DNA from: a bacterium
GTDB taxonomy: Bacteria; Myxococcota_A; UBA9042
Assembly: GCA_030425545.1 (NCBI GenBank)
Contig: JAUIAC010000033.1
Location: forward strand, 1-32,402
Length of the DNA stretch: 32,402 bases
Direction of reading: 5' to 3'
Shown piece by piece: positions 21,004 through 30,449 of this stretch. A model generated the notes under the pieces. It worked only from the letters and a program-made list of their open reading frames with translations, had not been told where the DNA came from and did no database searches. Every line of letters begins with the position of its first letter. Position 1 is the stretch's first letter. The position numbers and the translations under genes were made by a program.

Positions 21004-21594
21004 ATGCTGCGCGGCATGACTGCGCGCCGCTCCCCAGCCCTCAGCCACCTCTCCGCGCTCCAGCGACGCGCGCTGGCCACCGCCCTCGTCTGCCTCGCGA
21101 GCGCGTGTGCGCCCCCAGCCGCGCCCGCGCAGCGCCCGCAGGTCCCAGGGCAGCGCGCGCCCCGCGGCGCGGCGCAGCAGCCCACCGCGCCAGCCGCCCT
21201 CCCGCCGCTGACCCAGCCCCAGCGGGCCGTCGTGGCGCGCACGCGCGTGCCGGCGTTGCTGCCGCGCCAACACATCCAGCGCGCCGTGCTCACCGGCGAG
21301 CCGACCTGGTTCGCGGCGCACATCCCCTTTGAAGACGTGGTGATCACCCTCGAGGGCAACCTCACCGCCGTCGAGGCGCCCGAGATCGCTGCCGCGTGGG
21401 GCCGTTATCCGGTCGGGACCCGGGCGGCGCCGCGCATCGCCCACAACGAGCTGGTCATCGAGGCGGCGTGGCTGGACGCCGGCATCGCCTGGAGCCTGGA
21501 GGTGTCCTGTCAGCAGCCCGACACCAACCCCCGCTGTGTGCACGACGGCTTTGTGCGCGCCATGGTGGCGGACCTGGTGCGGGTCCACCCATGA
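21004..21594 (+). CDS. small lipoprotein of unknown function
   Basis: 196 residues from ATG 21004; ATG 21016 is also possible. The lipobox is LVCLASAC (Cys35). A Pro/Ala/Gln-rich linker to about residue 72 would hold the globular part away from the membrane. The folded part (residues 75-196) contains VVARTRVPALLPRQHIQRAVL, FAAHIPFEDVVITLEGN, NELVIEAAWLDAGIAWSLEVSCQQP and CVHDGFVRAMVADLVRV, with two cysteines (SCQQPDTNPRC) likely bridged. I recognise no family. Its stop overlaps the start of the M23/TSP1 gene as ATGA (21591-21594), so the two are translationally coupled and may work together in cell-wall or surface remodelling. Confidence 0.7.
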   Translation: MLRGMTARRSPALSHLSALQRRALATALVCLASACAPPAAPAQRPQVPGQRAPRGAAQQPTAPAALPPLTQPQRAVVARTRVPALLPRQHIQRAVLTGEPTWFAAHIPFEDVVITLEGNLTAVEAPEIAAAWGRYPVGTRAAPRIAHNELVIEAAWLDAGIAWSLEVSCQQPDTNPRCVHDGFVRAMVADLVRVHP

Positions 21595-23366
21595 GCTGGC
21601 GAGCCCAAACCCTGCGGGGCACCCGCGGCGCGCGCCCACTCGCGGCGTGCGTCGGTCTGCTCCTGACCCTCGCCAGCGCACACGGGTCAGCGTTCACCTA
21701 CCAACCGCACGGCACGTTGAAGCCCGGCAGCGGCACCGGCCAGAAGTCGACCAAAGACTACGTCCCCGGCATGCGCTTCCCCATGCTCAAGGCGCCCGCC
21801 TACGCCAACAGCCAAGTCTACATGAACGGCGGCAGCCAAGGCGGCGGCGGCGGCCAGTGCGACAAGGTCAACTACAGCTACCCGTGGTGGGACAACTACT
21901 GCGAGAAGCGCTCGTGGACCATGCCGCTCTGCCCCTCGGGCAAGGGGCACCAGGGCCAGGACATCCGGCCGGGCAGCTGCAAGTTCAACACGCACTGGGT
22001 GGTGGCGACCGAGGCCGGGACCATCACGTCCATCGGCACGTACGTCGTCTACGAGAAGTCTGTCACCGGCGTGACCCACCGGTACATGCACATGAAGATG
22101 AACGCCCTGGCCGTGAAGGTGGGGCAGAAGGTCGCCAAGGGGCAGAAGCTGGGCCTGGTGGACAACGACTTCGGCGGCACGCCCACCTCGCTGCACCTGC
22201 ACTACGACCGCAGGATGTACGTGTCGGGCGTGGGCACGGTGTACGTGCCCACCTACGCGTCGCTCGTCAACAGCTACAAGGTCCTCATCGGGGGCGGGTG
22301 CGACGCCACCGCCTGTAGCGCGAAGAGCGGCTGCGGCAGCTGGGGCGCGTGCGGCGGCTTCACCAGCGTGTGTGACACCACCGGCTCCCGGAAGCGCTCG
22401 TGCACCACGTACGCGTGTGTCGGCGGCAGCTGCAAGGCGACGTCGAAGACCGAGACCCAGGCCTGCTCCAGGGTCACCGACGGCAAGGCGGTGTCCGGGT
22501 GGAGCGGCTGGTCGACCTGCGCTCCGCAGGGCGGCGTGTGCACGGTGACCGGCAGCCAGAAGCGCACCCGGAGCGTGTGCCAGGGCGGCAGTCCGAAGAC
22601 CCAGAGCGCCACCCAGGCCTGCGCGGTGAAGTCCGACGGCAAGGTGGTGCAGGGCTGGTCGGCATGGAGCGCGTGCGGCGGCTTCGAGAGCACCTGTGAC
22701 GAGGGCGGCACCCGCAGCCGCAGCCGCTCCGTGTGCAAGGCCGGCGCGGCGGTGCCGCAGACCGCCAAGGAGCCGTGCACCGAGAGCAAGGACGGCGTCG
22801 CGGTGAGCGCCTGGGGTCCGTGGGGGCCGTGCGCAGGCTTCGCCGGCCCGTGCGACGGCCAGGGCGTGCGCAAGCGCAGCCGCTTGGTGTGCGCGGCCGG
22901 CGCGTCCAAGCCCGAGGTGGCGACGCAGCCCTGTCAGGTGGACCGCGAGGGGGTCGCGCTGACGCCCTGGGGGCCGTGGACGGCGTGCGTGCCGGACTCG
23001 AAACCCTGCGCGCCGAGCGGGACCCGCCGGCGGACGCGGCAGGTGTGCGCGGCTGGCGCGCCCAAGGTCGACGCTCAGCTCGAGAGCTGCGTGCCCGCGT
23101 GCGCCGGCGGGCTCGGCGGCGACGCGTCCAGCGACGCTGGCGGCGTGGTGTCCGGCGACGCTCGTGGCGCTGACGGGGACGTGGTCGCAGGGCTGGCTCC
23201 TCGCTCTCCAAGCGGCGGTTGCAGCGCCGCGTTCGCGCGCGGTGGGGTCATCCGCGGCACCGCCACCGCGGCCGGTGGGGCGCGGCGCTCAGGCTCCGGC
23301 CCGGGGCCCTGGTGGATCCTGGTGGCCACCGTGGGCGTGGTGTGGGCGACCCGGCGGGTGACGTGA
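21591..23366 (+). CDS. M23 metallopeptidase with five TSP1-like repeats and MYXO-CTERM-like tail
   Basis: 591 residues, signal peptide to about residue 35. The peptidase domain is LytM/M23-like with an apparently complete site: GHQGQD gives zinc ligands His120 and Asp124, HLHYD gives catalytic His202 and ligand His204, and YMHM has the usual second catalytic His167. It should cut peptidoglycan cross-bridges or Gly-rich peptides. Residues 240-500 hold five tandem thrombospondin type-1-like repeats of about 50 residues, such as GWSGWSTC, GWSAWSAC and AWGPWGPC, each followed by C, then G-x-x-(K/R)-x-R-x-x-x-C, then C. The tail has GGCSAAF, a spacer, a PWWILVATVGVVW helix and TRRVT, like a MYXO-CTERM sorting signal cut at Cys. 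It is probably surface-anchored through a myxosortase. TSP1 repeats are rare in bacteria. Confidence 0.85.
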   Translation: MSWRAQTLRGTRGARPLAACVGLLLTLASAHGSAFTYQPHGTLKPGSGTGQKSTKDYVPGMRFPMLKAPAYANSQVYMNGGSQGGGGGQCDKVNYSYPWWDNYCEKRSWTMPLCPSGKGHQGQDIRPGSCKFNTHWVVATEAGTITSIGTYVVYEKSVTGVTHRYMHMKMNALAVKVGQKVAKGQKLGLVDNDFGGTPTSLHLHYDRRMYVSGVGTVYVPTYASLVNSYKVLIGGGCDATACSAKSGCGSWGACGGFTSVCDTTGSRKRSCTTYACVGGSCKATSKTETQACSRVTDGKAVSGWSGWSTCAPQGGVCTVTGSQKRTRSVCQGGSPKTQSATQACAVKSDGKVVQGWSAWSACGGFESTCDEGGTRSRSRSVCKAGAAVPQTAKEPCTESKDGVAVSAWGPWGPCAGFAGPCDGQGVRKRSRLVCAAGASKPEVATQPCQVDREGVALTPWGPWTACVPDSKPCAPSGTRRRTRQVCAAGAPKVDAQLESCVPACAGGLGGDASSDAGGVVSGDARGADGDVVAGLAPRSPSGGCSAAFARGGVIRGTATAAGGARRSGSGPGPWWILVATVGVVWATRRVT

Positions 23367-23454: not shown

Positions 23455-26445
23455 ATGCCGCGGTCGGCGGTGACGGGCCGTCGCGCCAGTCTGCTGCTCC
23501 CCGCTGCGGTGGTCGCGCTCGTGCTCGCGCCCGGCCCTGCGTCCGCCGGCGGAGGCGGCCCGGCGCCTGCTGGCGCCGCGACAGCGGCTGGCGTCGCGTC
23601 GGCGGCCCCCGCACCCACGGCGCGCCCGCTGCCGCGCCCGGCGACGCCGACTGTGGTCGGGTTGGCCGCGCGTGCCCTCGGCCTGCCGGCCCCGGCCACC
23701 GCCGCGCTGCCCCGGGCGGCCACACCGGCGCGCGCTGCCCCACCCACAGGCTCCGACTCCGACAAGCGTCGCCAGACCGAGCGCGCTGCGCTGGATCTCG
23801 AGGCCCGTCTGGCGGCCGACGCCCAAGCTGAGGCGTCCAGAGCAGCGGCGGCCGCGGCCGAGGCCCACAAGCGCGCGCTGAAGGCCGCGCGCGAGGCGCG
23901 CGACGCCCACGAGCGTGCGCTGGCCACCGAGCGCGCCCGCATCGAGAAGGCCAAGCTCGAGATCGCCAACGCCAAGCGAACCCAGGCCGCGGCGCGCGAG
24001 GCGGCGTCGACGCTGGCCCGCAAGCGCTACGAGCGCGTCGAGGGGCTGGCGGGCCGCGCCAAGGCAGCCGCGGGCAACCCGTCCAAGGCCGACGCGCTCT
24101 ACCTCGAGCTGGTCAAGGTGCTCGAGGCGGAGCGCCTGGTCTTCGTCCGCGACCTGAACGCCATGAGCGCCCCGCAGTCCGACTTCGCGCCGACCGCCAC
24201 CGAGAACGCGGCGCCGGCGCTGGCCGACGTGCCAGAGCCGCGCCGCCGTGAACTCGAGGTGGAGCTGGCCAAGGTGCGGGCCACACGGGGCAACGTCGTG
24301 GCCGACGAGCGCCGCCAGCGGCTCGCGGCGTGCGCGGCCACGGCGGGCTTCGTCCGCAGGCTCAACGACCTCCGCACGGGCCTCATCGACCACCTCTCTC
24401 CCGCGGCCCGCAGCGAGCTCTTCGGCCTCACCTCGGCCGGCCTGGCGCAGTTCCGCCGCGAGCTGCGCCACCTGCAGCTCCTCGCCCGGTGGTACCCGAC
24501 CTCGCGCCTGTCGGTCGTGCGCGTGCCCCACAGCATCGACGAGCTGATCCTCAAGTTCTCCGCGTTGACCATGAGCCTGCTCAAGGGGCTGCTGGTCTTC
24601 TTGATCTGGTGGCTGAGCCGTCGTCGCTGGCGGGGCTGGGTCGCCGAGCTGCGCAAGCTGCTGCAGGGCAGGACCGCGCGCAGCCTGGTGTGGCGGGTCA
24701 CCGACGGGCTGCTTCAGCTGACGCTGCTCCTGGGCAAGGAGATCGGCTGGCTGCTCGCCGTGGTCATCGCCTTCACCTGGGTGCTCGACGCCACCCTCGC
24801 GACCGAGCTGCACCTCATCTACGAGCTCCTGCTCATCTGGGCGATCTACCGGCTTGTGCTGGCAGCGACCCACCGCTTCTTCACCTCCGCCGCGCGTCTG
24901 CGACTGAAGACCCGCCATGTAGAGGTGTCCGAGCAGCTCAGCGCCCGAATTCTGGCGTCCGTGCGGCTGGTCTCGCGCTACGGCTTCAGCGTGTGGGCGC
25001 TGCTCTCGCTGGCCGAGCACACCGTGGGCCCGGGCTATCTCTACCTGCTCGTGGTGCGCTTCTCGTGGGTCGGCGCGCTCCCGATCGCGTTCCTGCTCGT
25101 CCAGCGCTGGCAGGCCGACATCAGCGAAGCCTACCTGCGGGCCTATCCGAGCGGCGGCCTCGCTTCGCTGGTCGAGCGCACGCAGAACAAGCCCGTCGGC
25201 CTCATCGTGGCCTTCGCCGCCTTTGCCTATGTCGCCCTGCGAGGCGTGGCGCTGTGGGCGGGCGACGTGGCCATGAGCTTCGACGAGACGCGCCGCGTCC
25301 TGGCGTATCTCTTTCGCCGGGAGCTGGAGCGGCGCGCGGAGCAGCTGCACGTCGCCGAGCCGGTCGTCGCGCTGCCGGGGACCGTGCAGGCGGCCTTTGC
25401 CGACGATCCCGCTGGCGCCGACGACCTGGTGGAGACGCTGCCGCAGCTGGACGTGGTCTCCGCCGCGCTGGACGCCTGGGTGGCCGGTGGTCCCGCCAAG
25501 GCCGTGCTGGTGACCGGCGCGTGGGGCAGCGGGAAGACGACGTGGCTCCACGCCCTGGCGCGCTACGTCTTGGCGACCCATGTCGACCAGGTCGAGCTGC
25601 TGGACCTGCGCGTCGACGACCGGCCCCGGGACGCGCTCGCGGCGGTGCGGTGGTTTGGCCAGCACATGGGGCACGCGGACTGCCAGAGCTCGACCGAGCT
25701 AATCGACGCGCTGCTCGCCGGCCCGCGCCGGGTGGTCATCGTCGACGACGTCGGACACCTGGTGCTGCGGGCCATGGGCGGGACGACGCCCTGGGTGGCG
25801 CTGAGCGATCTCATCGGCGCGACCCGCGGCCACATCTTCTGGGTGGTGGCCTCGTCTCGCCACGCGGCCTACCTGGCCGAGAAGCTGCTGCCTGGGCGTG
25901 ACACCTACGACCTGGCGGTCAAGCTGCCCCGCTGGACCGAGGAGCAGATCGGCAGCCTCATCGGGCAGCGCATGGAGAGCTGTGGGGCCGAGGCCGACTT
26001 CGACGACCTGTGGGTGACCCTCGACGACGGTCAGGACCGGCTGCTCGAGGACATGCGGGCCGGCGAGCGCTTCATCCGGCTGCTCTGGGACCACAGCGAC
26101 GGCAACCCGCGGGACGCGCTCTATTTCTGGCTCCGCAGCCTGGTGCCCGACGGCGGTGACCGGGTCCGGGTCCATCTCTTCCACGCGCACACGGCAGACG
26201 AGCTGGAGCACCTGCGCACGCTCTCGCGCTTCACGCTGCAGGCGGTGTTGGTCCACAACGGGCTCTCTGCCGCCGAGGTGGCGCGGGTGCTCTACGACGA
26301 CGTGACCGAGGTCCGGACCACGCTGCGCTGGCTGACAGAGCAGGGCATCATCGAACCCGCGGGCGAGCGTTGGCGGGTGGCGCCGGCCTGGTACCGCGCC
26401 GCTGTCCGCTACCTGCGGCGCAAGCACTTGCTCCCTGGCGAGTGA
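23455..26445 (+). CDS. MscK-like membrane front end fused to an AAA+/STAND-type ATPase
   Basis: 996 residues from ATG 23455, which begins a clean signal peptide (LLLPAAVVALVLAPGPASA). GTG 23422 is upstream in frame. Order: Ala/Pro linker (35-100); charged coiled coil (103-207) and more helices to 370, predicted periplasmic; about six membrane helices at 374-391, 419-446, 452-473, 506-552 (two) and 580-607. A cytoplasmic P-loop ATPase follows: Walker A GAWGSGKTT (688-696), Walker B VVIVDD (760-765), a sensor-like WVVASSRH, LPRWTEEQIGSLI, and GNPRDAL as an Arg-bearing sensor-2-like motif of ORC/STAND ATPases. The last 75 residues (LSAAEVARVLYDDVTEVRTT, LTEQGIIEP) form a winged helix. The front half is laid out like large MscS-family channels, but the channel core is missing and is encoded by the next gene. 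Function unknown; a signalling ATPase gating that channel is my inference. Confidence 0.75.
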   Translation: MPRSAVTGRRASLLLPAAVVALVLAPGPASAGGGGPAPAGAATAAGVASAAPAPTARPLPRPATPTVVGLAARALGLPAPATAALPRAATPARAAPPTGSDSDKRRQTERAALDLEARLAADAQAEASRAAAAAAEAHKRALKAAREARDAHERALATERARIEKAKLEIANAKRTQAAAREAASTLARKRYERVEGLAGRAKAAAGNPSKADALYLELVKVLEAERLVFVRDLNAMSAPQSDFAPTATENAAPALADVPEPRRRELEVELAKVRATRGNVVADERRQRLAACAATAGFVRRLNDLRTGLIDHLSPAARSELFGLTSAGLAQFRRELRHLQLLARWYPTSRLSVVRVPHSIDELILKFSALTMSLLKGLLVFLIWWLSRRRWRGWVAELRKLLQGRTARSLVWRVTDGLLQLTLLLGKEIGWLLAVVIAFTWVLDATLATELHLIYELLLIWAIYRLVLAATHRFFTSAARLRLKTRHVEVSEQLSARILASVRLVSRYGFSVWALLSLAEHTVGPGYLYLLVVRFSWVGALPIAFLLVQRWQADISEAYLRAYPSGGLASLVERTQNKPVGLIVAFAAFAYVALRGVALWAGDVAMSFDETRRVLAYLFRRELERRAEQLHVAEPVVALPGTVQAAFADDPAGADDLVETLPQLDVVSAALDAWVAGGPAKAVLVTGAWGSGKTTWLHALARYVLATHVDQVELLDLRVDDRPRDALAAVRWFGQHMGHADCQSSTELIDALLAGPRRVVIVDDVGHLVLRAMGGTTPWVALSDLIGATRGHIFWVVASSRHAAYLAEKLLPGRDTYDLAVKLPRWTEEQIGSLIGQRMESCGAEADFDDLWVTLDDGQDRLLEDMRAGERFIRLLWDHSDGNPRDALYFWLRSLVPDGGDRVRVHLFHAHTADELEHLRTLSRFTLQAVLVHNGLSAAEVARVLYDDVTEVRTTLRWLTEQGIIEPAGERWRVAPAWYRAAVRYLRRKHLLPGE

Positions 26446-26536
26446 CGGAAGAGCAGCGCGGCCGAGGTCGCCCGCAGGCTGGGTCGCGCCGCGGCTCAGG
26501 ACGACGGGGTCGCACAGGCGCCGGCCAAACACCGAG

Positions 26537-26542
26537 AGGAGG
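26537..26542 (+). promoter_or_regulatory. ribosome binding site fixing the MscS start
   Basis: AGGAGG lies 5 nt before ATG 26548. The alternative GTG at 26542 overlaps the site and cannot be used with it, so the protein starts M-N-G-D-D. Confidence 0.85.
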
Positions 26543-26547
26543 TGCGC

Positions 26548-27423
26548 ATGAACGGCGACGACGCAAGCAACATCCTCCAGTTCATCCGCTTCTCGGGCGT
26601 GCCCGCGGCGGTGCTCGTCGTGGGCGCGATGTGGTTCGTCGCGGGGCTGGTCGGTCGCTTCGTCGACCAGCTGGGCGACCGCTTCACCCAGTGGCGCTTG
26701 CTGATTCAGCAGGTCGGCACGCTCATCCGCTTCGGCCTCTACATCTTCGCCATCGCCGCGGCGGGGGCCCTCGCGCTCCGGCTCAGCGATCAGGCCATGC
26801 TCGCGCTCAGCGGCACCATCGCCTTCACCGCAGGCTTCGCGTTCAAGGACCTGGGCGCGTCGGTGCTCGCTGGCATCACGATCTTGCTCGACCGCCCCTT
26901 TCAGGTCGGCGACCGCGTCAGCTTTGGCGGCTACTACGGCGAGATCTCGGCCATCGGGCTGCGCTCTGTGCGCCTGGTCACCCTCGACGACAACCTCGTC
27001 ACCATCCCGAACAACAAGTTCCTCACCGAGGCGGTGTCCTGCGGCAACGCCGGCGCGCTCGACATGCTGATCCAGATGGACTTCTTCATCGGCGTGGACC
27101 AGGACGTCACCGCGGCCCGGCGCATCATCGCCGACGCCATCACCTCCAGCCGCTACGCCTTCCTCGACAAGCCCTGGGCGGTGCTGGTGAACCAGGTCGT
27201 CCACGAGGGCTATTTCGCCGTGCGCATGCGCGCCAAGGTCTACGTGCTCGACCTGCACTTCGAGAAGGCGCTCGAGTCCGACGTGACCCTGCGTGTGCTC
27301 GACGGGCTGCGAGCCGCGGGCGTGCGCCCTCCAGCGATGCTCGTGCGCAGCATGAACGGTGAAGAGGTGGCGACCGACGCGCTGCCCATGCACGAGATCG
27401 CCGCCCGGGTGAAGCCGTCGTGA
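26548..27423 (+). CDS. MscS-family mechanosensitive-type channel
   Basis: 291 residues, the compact three-helix MscS form: TM1 about 8-33 (GVPAAVLVVGAMWFVAGLVGRF), TM2 about 54-78, and the pore helix TM3 about 85-115 with IAFTAGFAFKDLGASVLAGITIL, whose Gly/Ala packing pattern is typical. The cytoplasmic beta domain starts RPFQVGDRVSFGGYYGEISAIGLRSVRL and LVTIPNNKF, both family signatures, and is followed by the alpha/beta cage. In ordinary cells such channels open under membrane tension and release solutes. It lies 102 bp after the ATPase-fusion gene and its stop overlaps the helicase start (27420-27423), so it is made together with a DNA/RNA helicase. That is odd for a housekeeping osmotic valve and suggests effector-like use. 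Confidence 0.92.
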   Translation: MNGDDASNILQFIRFSGVPAAVLVVGAMWFVAGLVGRFVDQLGDRFTQWRLLIQQVGTLIRFGLYIFAIAAAGALALRLSDQAMLALSGTIAFTAGFAFKDLGASVLAGITILLDRPFQVGDRVSFGGYYGEISAIGLRSVRLVTLDDNLVTIPNNKFLTEAVSCGNAGALDMLIQMDFFIGVDQDVTAARRIIADAITSSRYAFLDKPWAVLVNQVVHEGYFAVRMRAKVYVLDLHFEKALESDVTLRVLDGLRAAGVRPPAMLVRSMNGEEVATDALPMHEIAARVKPS

Positions 27424-30400
27424 GCGGATGCGGACCCGGGTCCGGCGACGACCCACGCCCTCCCCACCCCCTCGACCTCGCCCTGACCTGGCGGCGCTTT
27501 CAGGAGGTGGCCCTGGCGCAGCTGCTCAGCGCGGCCATGCGGGGAGATCAGCGGCTGCAGCTGGTGGCGCCGCCGGGGTCCGGCAAGACGCTCATGGGCC
27601 TCTACGTGGCCTTTCAGCTCGGGCGCCCCGTCGTGGTGTTGTGCAACACGCGCGCCATCGTCGCCCAGTGGCGCGCCGCGTTCCTGCGCTTCGGCATCTC
27701 GGAGCGGCCAGACTTCGACGACCTGACGGACCTGGTGGCCACCGACCTGCCGCGCGCCGACGAGCGCATGCCCTTGCTCACCGTGACGACCTACCAGGCG
27801 TTCACACGGCAACGCCCGGCCAAGCTGGCCCGGGGTGAGGACGTCAGCGAGCGCCTGGCGCCCACCGTGCTCGCACAACACGATCGCTATGGTCGCTCAG
27901 GGCCCTTGCTGGTGCTCGACGAGTGCCACCACCTGCGGGCGTGGTGGGGCGACGTGCTGGCGGACTTCGTTGCCCGGTGGCCGGACTCCGCTGTGCTCGG
28001 GTTGACCGCGACGCCACCGGTGGACGCGCCAGCCGACGAGCGCAGGCGCTTCGAGAAGCTGGTCACCGACGTGACCCATGAGATCCCCCTGGTGGGCGCC
28101 GTGCGTGAGGGGCTGCTGGTGCCCTTTCGCGACCTGGCCGTCTTCGTCCGGCCGGGCGAGGAGGAGGCCCAGGCGCTCGCGGGCTGCGAGGCCGGCCTGC
28201 AGGCCTGGCTCGAAGAGGCGCGCGAGGGCGTCGGTGACGCAACCCAACGGCCCGGCCACGCGGACGCCTGGGTCCCTGGGCTGCTGCACCACGTGCGCGA
28301 GCGCTGCGTGCGTCCGGGGCGGCGCACGCTGACCTGCACCGACTTCCTGGAGCTCATCGACCGGGACGCGGACTTCGCCATCGCCTTGGTGCGCTACCTC
28401 CACGCGTGTGGCGAGTCGTGGCCCGCGGAGGTCTATCCGATGCCCGAGATGGCCTTTCCGCTGACGCGCGCCGACGTGCTCGCCGTGGTGGACGACTACC
28501 TCGTGGCGGTGCTGGTCGACGCCGCGTCGCGGCACGCCAAGGCGCGCGTCGAGTCACTGCGGGCGGCGCTGAAGCCGCTCAACGTCCGGGTGCGCACAGA
28601 CGGGCTGCGCGGGCAGGGGGACGGCGTCGAGGACGTGTTCGGGCGCGCCCGGGCGCGCTTTGTCGCGGCCAGCCGGATCTTGCGGCGCGAGTGGGCGCTC
28701 CTGGGCACCGACGTGTGTGCGGCCGTCATCTGTGACTTCGAACGCACGGCCCTGGGTGGCCAGCGAGTCGAAGACACCGCCGGCTTCGTCCCCGGGGCCA
28801 TCGGCGCGTTTCGCGCTGTGGCGGCTGATCCCGAGCTGCAAGAGCTCTTGCCGATGCTCGCCACGGGCAGCGAGCGCTGGCTGCCCGCGGCCCTGGTGCC
28901 CGCGTTGTCTGAGCGGCTGGGCGCGCTGAGCGTGGGCCTGGTGCAGTCGCCTCTCGACCCGGCCACGGTCGGGACGACCCGGCAGACCTTTGTGCAGGTG
29001 CGCCTGCCGGGACACGAGGGCAAGCTGCTCGGCGCCATGACCGGGCTGCTGGAGCGCGATCACAGCCACTGCGTCGTCGGCACGCGCGCGCTGCTCGGCG
29101 AGGGCTGGGACTGCACCACGCTCAACACGCTCGTGGATCTCACGTCGAGCCGCAGCCACGTCGCGGTCAACCAGCTGCGCGGTCGCGTGCTGCGCCAGGA
29201 CCCCGAGCGCCCGGAGAAGGTCGCCCACATCTGGGACGTGGTCGCGGTGCCCAACCTCGCTGGCGGCGCCGGCGCGGCCAACGTCAGCTTCGCCATGGCT
29301 GACCTGGAGCGCTTCGCTCAGAAACACGCGCGCTTCTACGCGCCGGCCGAAGACGCGACCCTGGAGCGCGGGGCAGGGCATGTCCACCCAGCGCTGCGGG
29401 GCGCGCCCCAGCGCTGGCTCCCGCACATCGACGCTGTCGGCGCGGACCTGTGGCGCTCCGCCGAACAACGGGCGGCGGTGAGCCGCGCCGCGCTGCGCAA
29501 GCGCTGGCGGCTCGGCGAGCCGCTACAGGAGCGGGAGCGCTGCGAGGTCGCGGTGGAGATGCCGCCCGCGACGGACAGCGCCGAGCAGCCGGACGCGGGC
29601 GGCGCCGCTCGCGTGGCGGCGCTGGCGACGACGCCGCTGGTGGGCGAGGCGTCGGACGCGTGGCGCCTGGCCTGGACGCTGAACGAGGCGCGTCGAGACG
29701 CCCGGACGCGCTGGTGGGGCACGTCGACGGCGCTCGTCGGCTGTGGCGTCGCGCTCGGGGCGCTGGCCTCGCCGGTGGCCGGGGTCGCTGTGGGCGTCGT
29801 CGGGCTGGCGGTCGCGGCGGTCCACGCGTCGCGGCTCCGCGCCGCGGCCACGGCGCTGCAGCGCATCCGCACCGACCTCAGCGAGGCTGAGCGGACCCGC
29901 CGCGTCTTGCGCGTGTTGCTGCGCGCGCTGGCCAAAGCGTCGAAGAAGACCCAGGACGTCGACGTCGGCCTGGACGTTCGAGACGACGGCGACATCTGTG
30001 TGCAGCTCGCCGGCAGCGACGCCCGTGCACGGGAGCGCGTCGCCAGCGCGGTCGACCAGGCGCTGCGCGGCTGCCCTGCGCCCCACTACGCCGTGGAGGT
30101 CTTCTCCCCCCGCACCCCGGTCCTGGGGCTGCTCTCACCGACCCCGGACGTGGGACCCGCCACCGCAGAGGCCATCGCAGATACCGTCGCGGACGCGGCC
30201 GCAGACGCCACGGCGGTGCCGCCTGGCTTCGTCGCCGTCGGCTGGGTCCCCGTGCCCGCTGCCCTCGGCATCTCACGGCGGGTCGCCGAGGCCTGGGCCG
30301 AGGCCTGGCGGTCCGAGCTCGGGCCATGTCGTCTGGTGGCGGTGCGCAAGTCGCGCGCCACCGACGCGCTACCGTGGCGCGACCCGGCCACCCTGCGCTG

Positions 30401-30449
30401 GCTCCGCGCCACGCAGCGGCGTGGCGACGCGCGCCTCGTGCTGGAGTAG
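27420..30449 (+). CDS. SF2 helicase with a DECH box and a C-terminal membrane hairpin
   Basis: 1009 residues, GTG start overlapping the MscS stop (GTGA). RecA lobe 1: a Q-motif-like WRRFQEVAL, motif I APPGSGKT (50-57), a Ia-like VVLCNTRAIVAQW, motif II D167-E-C-H170, motif III LTATPP (195-200). Lobe 2: VVGTRALLGEGWDC near 548-560 as motif V and QLRGRVLRQ (585-593) as motif VI with its Arg fingers. Between the lobes is an insert of roughly 300 residues with no motif I know. After the helicase core comes TALVGCGVALGALASPVAGVAVGVVGLAVAAV (about 770-800), long enough for a two-helix membrane hairpin, then a 200-residue alpha/beta tail (VDVGLDVRDDGDICVQLAG, PPGFVAVGWVPVPAALG). Membrane-tethered SF2 helicases are unusual. 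Nucleic-acid sensing at the membrane is inference. Confidence 0.82.
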   Translation: MSGCGPGSGDDPRPPHPLDLALTWRRFQEVALAQLLSAAMRGDQRLQLVAPPGSGKTLMGLYVAFQLGRPVVVLCNTRAIVAQWRAAFLRFGISERPDFDDLTDLVATDLPRADERMPLLTVTTYQAFTRQRPAKLARGEDVSERLAPTVLAQHDRYGRSGPLLVLDECHHLRAWWGDVLADFVARWPDSAVLGLTATPPVDAPADERRRFEKLVTDVTHEIPLVGAVREGLLVPFRDLAVFVRPGEEEAQALAGCEAGLQAWLEEAREGVGDATQRPGHADAWVPGLLHHVRERCVRPGRRTLTCTDFLELIDRDADFAIALVRYLHACGESWPAEVYPMPEMAFPLTRADVLAVVDDYLVAVLVDAASRHAKARVESLRAALKPLNVRVRTDGLRGQGDGVEDVFGRARARFVAASRILRREWALLGTDVCAAVICDFERTALGGQRVEDTAGFVPGAIGAFRAVAADPELQELLPMLATGSERWLPAALVPALSERLGALSVGLVQSPLDPATVGTTRQTFVQVRLPGHEGKLLGAMTGLLERDHSHCVVGTRALLGEGWDCTTLNTLVDLTSSRSHVAVNQLRGRVLRQDPERPEKVAHIWDVVAVPNLAGGAGAANVSFAMADLERFAQKHARFYAPAEDATLERGAGHVHPALRGAPQRWLPHIDAVGADLWRSAEQRAAVSRAALRKRWRLGEPLQERERCEVAVEMPPATDSAEQPDAGGAARVAALATTPLVGEASDAWRLAWTLNEARRDARTRWWGTSTALVGCGVALGALASPVAGVAVGVVGLAVAAVHASRLRAAATALQRIRTDLSEAERTRRVLRVLLRALAKASKKTQDVDVGLDVRDDGDICVQLAGSDARARERVASAVDQALRGCPAPHYAVEVFSPRTPVLGLLSPTPDVGPATAEAIADTVADAAADATAVPPGFVAVGWVPVPAALGISRRVAEAWAEAWRSELGPCRLVAVRKSRATDALPWRDPATLRWLRATQRRGDARLVLE

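Follow-up and report, generated by a model that had tools for sequence, protein, structure and literature searches.

Results

Gene organization of the locus

The window, i.e., the whole stretch of 32,402 nucleotides analyzed here, holds two adjacent genes on the forward strand, one for a large membrane-anchored ATPase and, directly downstream, one for a channel protein of the MscS family (Table 1). The larger reading frame is a real gene, as its nearest orthologue (L001, 61% identity) was found in another Myxococcales genome, where the same pair is present with different flanking genes. The first-pass annotation, made from the sequence alone, had described a signal peptide, a coiled coil, membrane helices, an ATPase and a winged helix in this protein, and the reading frame, hydropathy, motifs and relatives bear out this order, with both Walker motifs located precisely at the residues claimed. 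The number of membrane helices, given there as about six, holds only in part. Six hydrophobic peaks are seen in the protein itself (residues 370, 426, 454, 506, 531, and 580) and in the hydropathy averaged over 40 relatives; however, the positive-inside pattern fits five spanning helices, and the sixth segment (580-598) is uncertain, since an even number of helices would place the ATPase outside the cytoplasm. Structure predictions, for which the input alignment contained two sequences, reached a mean pLDDT of 43.8 for the full protein and 42.2 for the ATPase domain, with the highest scores in the coiled-coil region; at this alignment depth both models were too poor for fold searches. With the whole protein as query, a sequence search of the PDB gave no match.

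That the MscS core is encoded by the very next gene, as also claimed initially, proved correct. This gene carries the PF00924 beta-domain with a preceding pore helix, and a search against the PDB matched MscS structures at ~1e-13.

Table 1. Coordinates of the features of the ATPase-MscS gene pair within the window
Feature	Position	Strand	Basis or remark
Membrane-anchored ATPase gene, 996 aa	23455..26445	+	ATG 23455, stop 26445, 997 codons
Signal peptide, residues 1-31, predicted cleavage after ASA	23455..23547	+	sequence reading, hydropathy
Periplasmic coiled-coil region, residues 101-311	23755..24387	+	long helices in low-confidence model
Membrane part, residues 370-598	24562..25248	+	hydropathy averaged over 40 relatives
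STAND/AAA-type P-loop ATPase domain, residues ~661-905	25435..26169	+	weak AAA_22/AAA_16/nSTAND matches
Walker A GAWGSGKTT, residues 688-696	25516..25542	+
Walker B VVIVDD, residues 760-765	25732..25749	+
GNP motif, residues 883-885, STAND/Cdc6-like	26101..26109	+	G kept in 108/111 aligned
C-terminal winged helix, residues ~915-990	26197..26424	+	MarR_2/HTH matches here in relatives
Shine-Dalgarno-like GAGAGGAGG ahead of the channel gene	26534..26542	+
Partner MscS channel, 291 aa, 3 TM + beta-domain + cytoplasmic domain	26548..27423	+	PF00924 E 1.2e-17

Downstream of the pair lies a helicase gene (27420-30449, ResIII E 4e-18) that resembles the PbeA and Dnd restriction helicases and, if it begins at its first possible start, overlaps the stop of the MscS gene. 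It was considered as a third member of the pair and rejected, given that it is not conserved at other loci. Upstream, the gene at 21396-23366 encodes a predicted M23 peptidase (PF01551 E 6e-9) that also contains three TSP1 stretches of the spondin-like kind, for which the PF19028 match (E 8e-10) falls slightly short of the cut-off, a combination uncommon for a bacterium.

The membrane part is related to the peripheral bundle of MscK

The first reading had likened the front of the large protein to that of MscK/MscM-type channels, and comparing residues 370-610 with the MscK membrane domains by profile-profile alignment (hhalign) gave a positive result. Forty aligned front ends were compared with seven proteins of the MscK/MscM type, two of them MscK and MscM of E. 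coli and the other five from Myxococcota, and the two families matched with 95% probability (E 3e-8, 167 columns), pairing residues ~376-549 of the large protein with residues 511-675 of MscK, a stretch that corresponds to TM1-5 by hydropathy. The probability was 96.6% with the roles of the two alignments swapped and 88-95% with random halves, while all controls, namely reversed alignments, ten block shuffles and the CPA2, SLC12-like, TrkH, and second-antiporter families, stayed at or below 3%. Against the Myxococcota MscK proteins alone the probability was 90%, versus 25% against E. coli MscK and MscM alone. No alignment to the MscK family was obtained for the periplasmic coiled coil in this comparison. 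At the level of Pfam models, PF12794 (MscS_TM) and PF12795 (MscS_porin) have no match in the window protein at E 0.5 and are absent from the 25 commonest families of the 40 relatives; no PF12794 was found in the window's own genome.

Of the eleven TM helices of MscK, the first six (TM1-6) build the peripheral bundle, and the channel core consists of TM7-11 (PMC9653487). On the partner side, MscK residues 850-1104 (TM9-11 and the cytoplasmic domain) align with the partner MscS family with a probability of 99.3%, and equivalents of TM7-8 were not found in the gene pair. The polypeptide with the MscK-like bundle contains no MscS core of its own. Thus, as judged from these alignments, the gene pair is a split MscK-like channel with the ATPase standing in the position of the core, since the membrane part aligns with TM1-5 and the partner with TM9-11 and the cytoplasmic domain. 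The initial proposal of a split and rewired channel therefore stands as far as the anatomy goes (MscK-like front, ATPase in place of the core, core in the next gene); its gating half is taken up in the Discussion.

The ATPase is found with an MscS gene in many Myxococcota genomes

Of 189 Myxococcota genomes searched with the ATPase-domain profile, 72 carry the family. From these 72 genomes, 96 loci were retrieved, and 113 ATPase reading frames were tabulated in all, 110 of which were evaluable, the other three being cut by contig ends. An MscS gene lies directly downstream on the same strand in 106 of the 110, with a median of 50 nt between the ATPase stop and the first MscS-like residue. From the nine MscS-type genes spread over the 7.4 Mb of the window's genome, chance adjacency can be estimated at ~0.1% per gene, and the observed adjacency is far above chance. 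Exceptions are L118 and L121, which have no downstream MscS, and L125, where it is 2.2 kb off. The reading frame at L177 (1753-4254) was considered as an ATPase-MscS fusion and rejected; it runs into just a C-terminal MscS remnant in a fragmented assembly, perhaps a deletion or an assembly artefact. Many of the tabulated loci come from fragmented assemblies. Some pairs are followed by an extra MscS gene of the stand-alone type (L002 9200-10138, L043 4680-5591, and L044 1351-2208).

Beyond Myxococcota, the family was seen on plasmids only. A tblastn search of plasmids recovered three alphaproteobacterial records, from Caulobacter and Novosphingobium, in each of which the ATPase is followed at once by MscS; a Caulobacter plasmid has an additional MscS gene. 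A scan of viral contigs returned no relative of the ATPase family. The window's own genome holds two ATPase-MscS pairs. The second, on contig C307 (L039, G000:C307:1-2644), is kin to the antiporter-fronted type described below, and its Walker A lysine is replaced by arginine (GEAGSGRT).

Front ends are interchangeable and the operon neighbors are transport genes

Based on domain assignments and the profile alignments above, the front end of the ATPase family is interchangeable, being an MscK-like bundle, a CPA2 antiporter or an SLC12/amino-acid-permease-like transporter. The bundle noted in the first reading is one front end among several. In about 37 ATPases, an antiporter domain of the CPA2 type (Na+/H+ or K+/H+) takes this place, and the members scanned match PF00999 with E values of 1e-20 to 1e-24. 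The permease domain PF00324 was detected at ~1e-40 to 1e-45 in the three proteins tested (L166, L170, and L173), with which L167 groups; the SLC12 match was marginal and occurred in one of these three. In another member (L134 2803-6918), the front end has 11 TM helices and no Pfam match.

Two gene orders are observed in the antiporter type: trkA, trkH, antiporter-ATPase, MscS at ~18 loci, and antiporter, antiporter-ATPase, MscS at ~16 loci (for TrkH, TrkA_N, and PF00999, one neighbor each was checked and confirmed with Pfam). The operons thus place the ATPase next to genes for the transport of K+ and cations.

ATPase and MscS partners diverge together

Pairwise distances of the ATPases and of their MscS partners correlate with r 0.74 overall and with 0.78 and 0.91 within types, the latter for the antiporter type (permutation null maxima 0.08-0.26), a correlation that partly reflects shared ancestry. 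For 93 of the 106 partners, the nearest MscS relative comes with the same type of front end, and identity between MscS partners is 19% between front-end types in one genome versus 35% for the same type across genomes. In the maximum-likelihood tree, the partners of the MscK-like ATPases form one clade (100/99); four rows labelled as MscK-front and placed elsewhere are truncated or differently fronted reading frames. The partner MscS proteins lie outside the clade that contains stand-alone MscS of the same genome and the MscK/MscM cores (99/94), in which the second MscS genes beside three pairs are also placed.

ATPase class and conservation of the P-loop

Pfam matches of the large protein are weak and centred on the P-loop (nSTAND_NTPase5, AAA_16, AAA_22, and NACHT). 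The window protein stays below the cut-offs for AAA_22 and AAA_16, which relatives do pass; of 40 relatives, 36 match AAA_22 (best E 2e-12), and MarR-type winged-helix matches are also present among the 40. The motifs by which STAND/AAA_22 proteins are recognized (Walker A, Walker B, a GxP-like motif, and a winged helix) are all present in the window protein. A PDB search with the ATPase profile recovered generic AAA P-loops only.

The Walker A signature GK[ST] is intact in 51 of 111 aligned relatives and its lysine is kept in 85; the lysine is substituted in about a quarter of the family, and the antiporter-type copies are mostly degenerate. Given these degenerate P-loops in many relatives, hydrolysis would not be a general requirement. 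The window protein retains both Walker motifs, and ATP as a direct trigger, as envisaged in the first-pass annotation, is therefore possible. It appears safer to read the ATPase as a switch that follows nucleotide state, or in certain branches as a scaffold, than as an ATP-driven motor.

Discussion

A proposed nucleotide-controlled valve

MscS-family channels are the textbook example of membrane-tension gating, and MscK (KefA) and MscM of E. coli are K+-dependent or large members of this family. We regard it as somewhat more probable than its contrary that the products of the two genes described here work as a single membrane machine, in which a cytosolic nucleotide switch controls a split MscK-like channel. 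The ATPase-MscS pair is probably a nucleotide-controlled osmotic or potassium valve, considering that the pairing recurs in more than 100 loci, often with potassium transporters, and coupling between ATPase and channel appears likely from the conserved pairing and the K+-transport neighbors. The large protein would provide an MscK-like periplasmic and peripheral membrane sensor, from which the STAND/AAA-type ATPase would project into the cytoplasm, and the neighboring MscS protein would form the heptameric pore. The ATPase could then touch the cytoplasmic cage of MscS and relay to the pore a signal that originates in the sensor or transporter half, so that its nucleotide or ligand state would move the gating threshold, and release of K+ or osmolytes would be set by ion content or energy state and not by tension alone. 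MscK requires external K+ besides tension (PMC9653487), which fits an ion-reading front end. The partner keeps three TM helices and may also gate by tension unaided. A broader generalization is held only tentatively, as we judge it rather less probable than not: the pairs would form a widespread class of nucleotide-switched osmotic valves, in which one STAND-like ATPase family would relay the state of interchangeable sensors or transporters to a dedicated MscS pore, with nucleotide or ligand replacing or overriding tension.

Alternative explanations

Several other readings of the same data have to be weighed. The ATPase might act solely on its own front end, with MscS as a separate safety valve that is not directly gated. 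The K+-transport context of the operons suits such an arrangement, as both components would serve K+ or osmotic homeostasis, and TrkA/KTN nucleotide-binding domains are known to control TrkH and Kef. However, MscS is the one constant partner while the front ends vary, it is distinct from stand-alone MscS and tracks the ATPase, and the MscK-like front end has no transporter to act upon and matches the missing half of the channel; we thus consider a separate valve unlikely, though not negligibly so. The resemblance to MscK could also be mere shared hydrophobicity, the membrane part being an unrelated anchor. The lack of a direct PF12794 or PF12795 match in the window protein or in the commonest families of the 40 relatives, and the low probability obtained with the two E. 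coli sequences as the only target, would agree with this, but the match to the wider MscK family is strong in both directions, collinear with TM1-5 and stable to random halving, and no control approached it, so that little weight is left for an unrelated anchor.

As STAND ATPases that act through membrane effectors are known from defence systems, the pair might instead detect phage and open the MscS pore, killing or arresting the cell. Copies on plasmids and, in the window, the adjoining helicase similar to restriction components would be in line with such a module. Yet PADLOC returned weak P-loop matches only, neither a defence model nor a defence neighborhood was recovered, conservation of the helicase does not extend to other loci, a C-terminal repeat sensor is missing, and the recurring neighbors are K+-transport genes, which makes a defence role very improbable. 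The tight operon pairing and the AAA-type fold could alternatively mean that the ATPase helps the MscS heptamer to assemble or controls its quality, and is no gating element. MscS heptamers normally assemble without helpers, however, and large transporter fusions and degenerate P-loops are unlike a chaperone; of the alternatives considered, this is the one we find least probable.

Comparison with known systems

The proposed split channel shares with E. coli MscK/MscM the signal peptide, the periplasmic helical domain, the TM1-5-related bundle and an MscS-type pore. It differs in being made of two polypeptides instead of one, in having no TM7-8 equivalents that we could find and an ATPase and winged helix after the bundle, and in the lack of a direct Pfam match to MscS_porin or MscS_TM. 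The partner itself is a canonical 3-TM MscS with the PF00924 beta-domain; nevertheless, it belongs to clades apart from stand-alone MscS of the same genome and from MscK cores, and its pairing with the ATPase looks obligate. Nucleotide-binding cytosolic control of K+ transport, as proposed here, is known from the TrkH-TrkA and Kef-KTN (RCK) systems, and CPA2, TrkH and TrkA are found in sister operons, although the predicted switch is a STAND/AAA P-loop ATPase and not a Rossmann RCK domain, and the constant partner is an MscS channel. Walker A, Walker B, the GNP motif and the C-terminal winged helix are shared with STAND/AAA_22 NTPases (NACHT, nSTAND, and ORC/Cdc6-like), whereas the N-terminus is a channel bundle or an ion transporter, there is no repeat sensor, and the P-loop has been lost in many members. 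A literature search of open-access papers returned no published description of an ATPase-MscS pairing.

A conserved split channel yoked to an ATPase, with sister operons that include K+ antiporters, SLC12-like carriers and Trk genes, suggests that in many bacteria osmotic release is joined to ion or energy status via one switch protein, and raises the testable question of whether an MscS pore can have its gating threshold set by nucleotide state. The pair would also be a natural dissection of MscK, with the peripheral bundle here detached from the pore.
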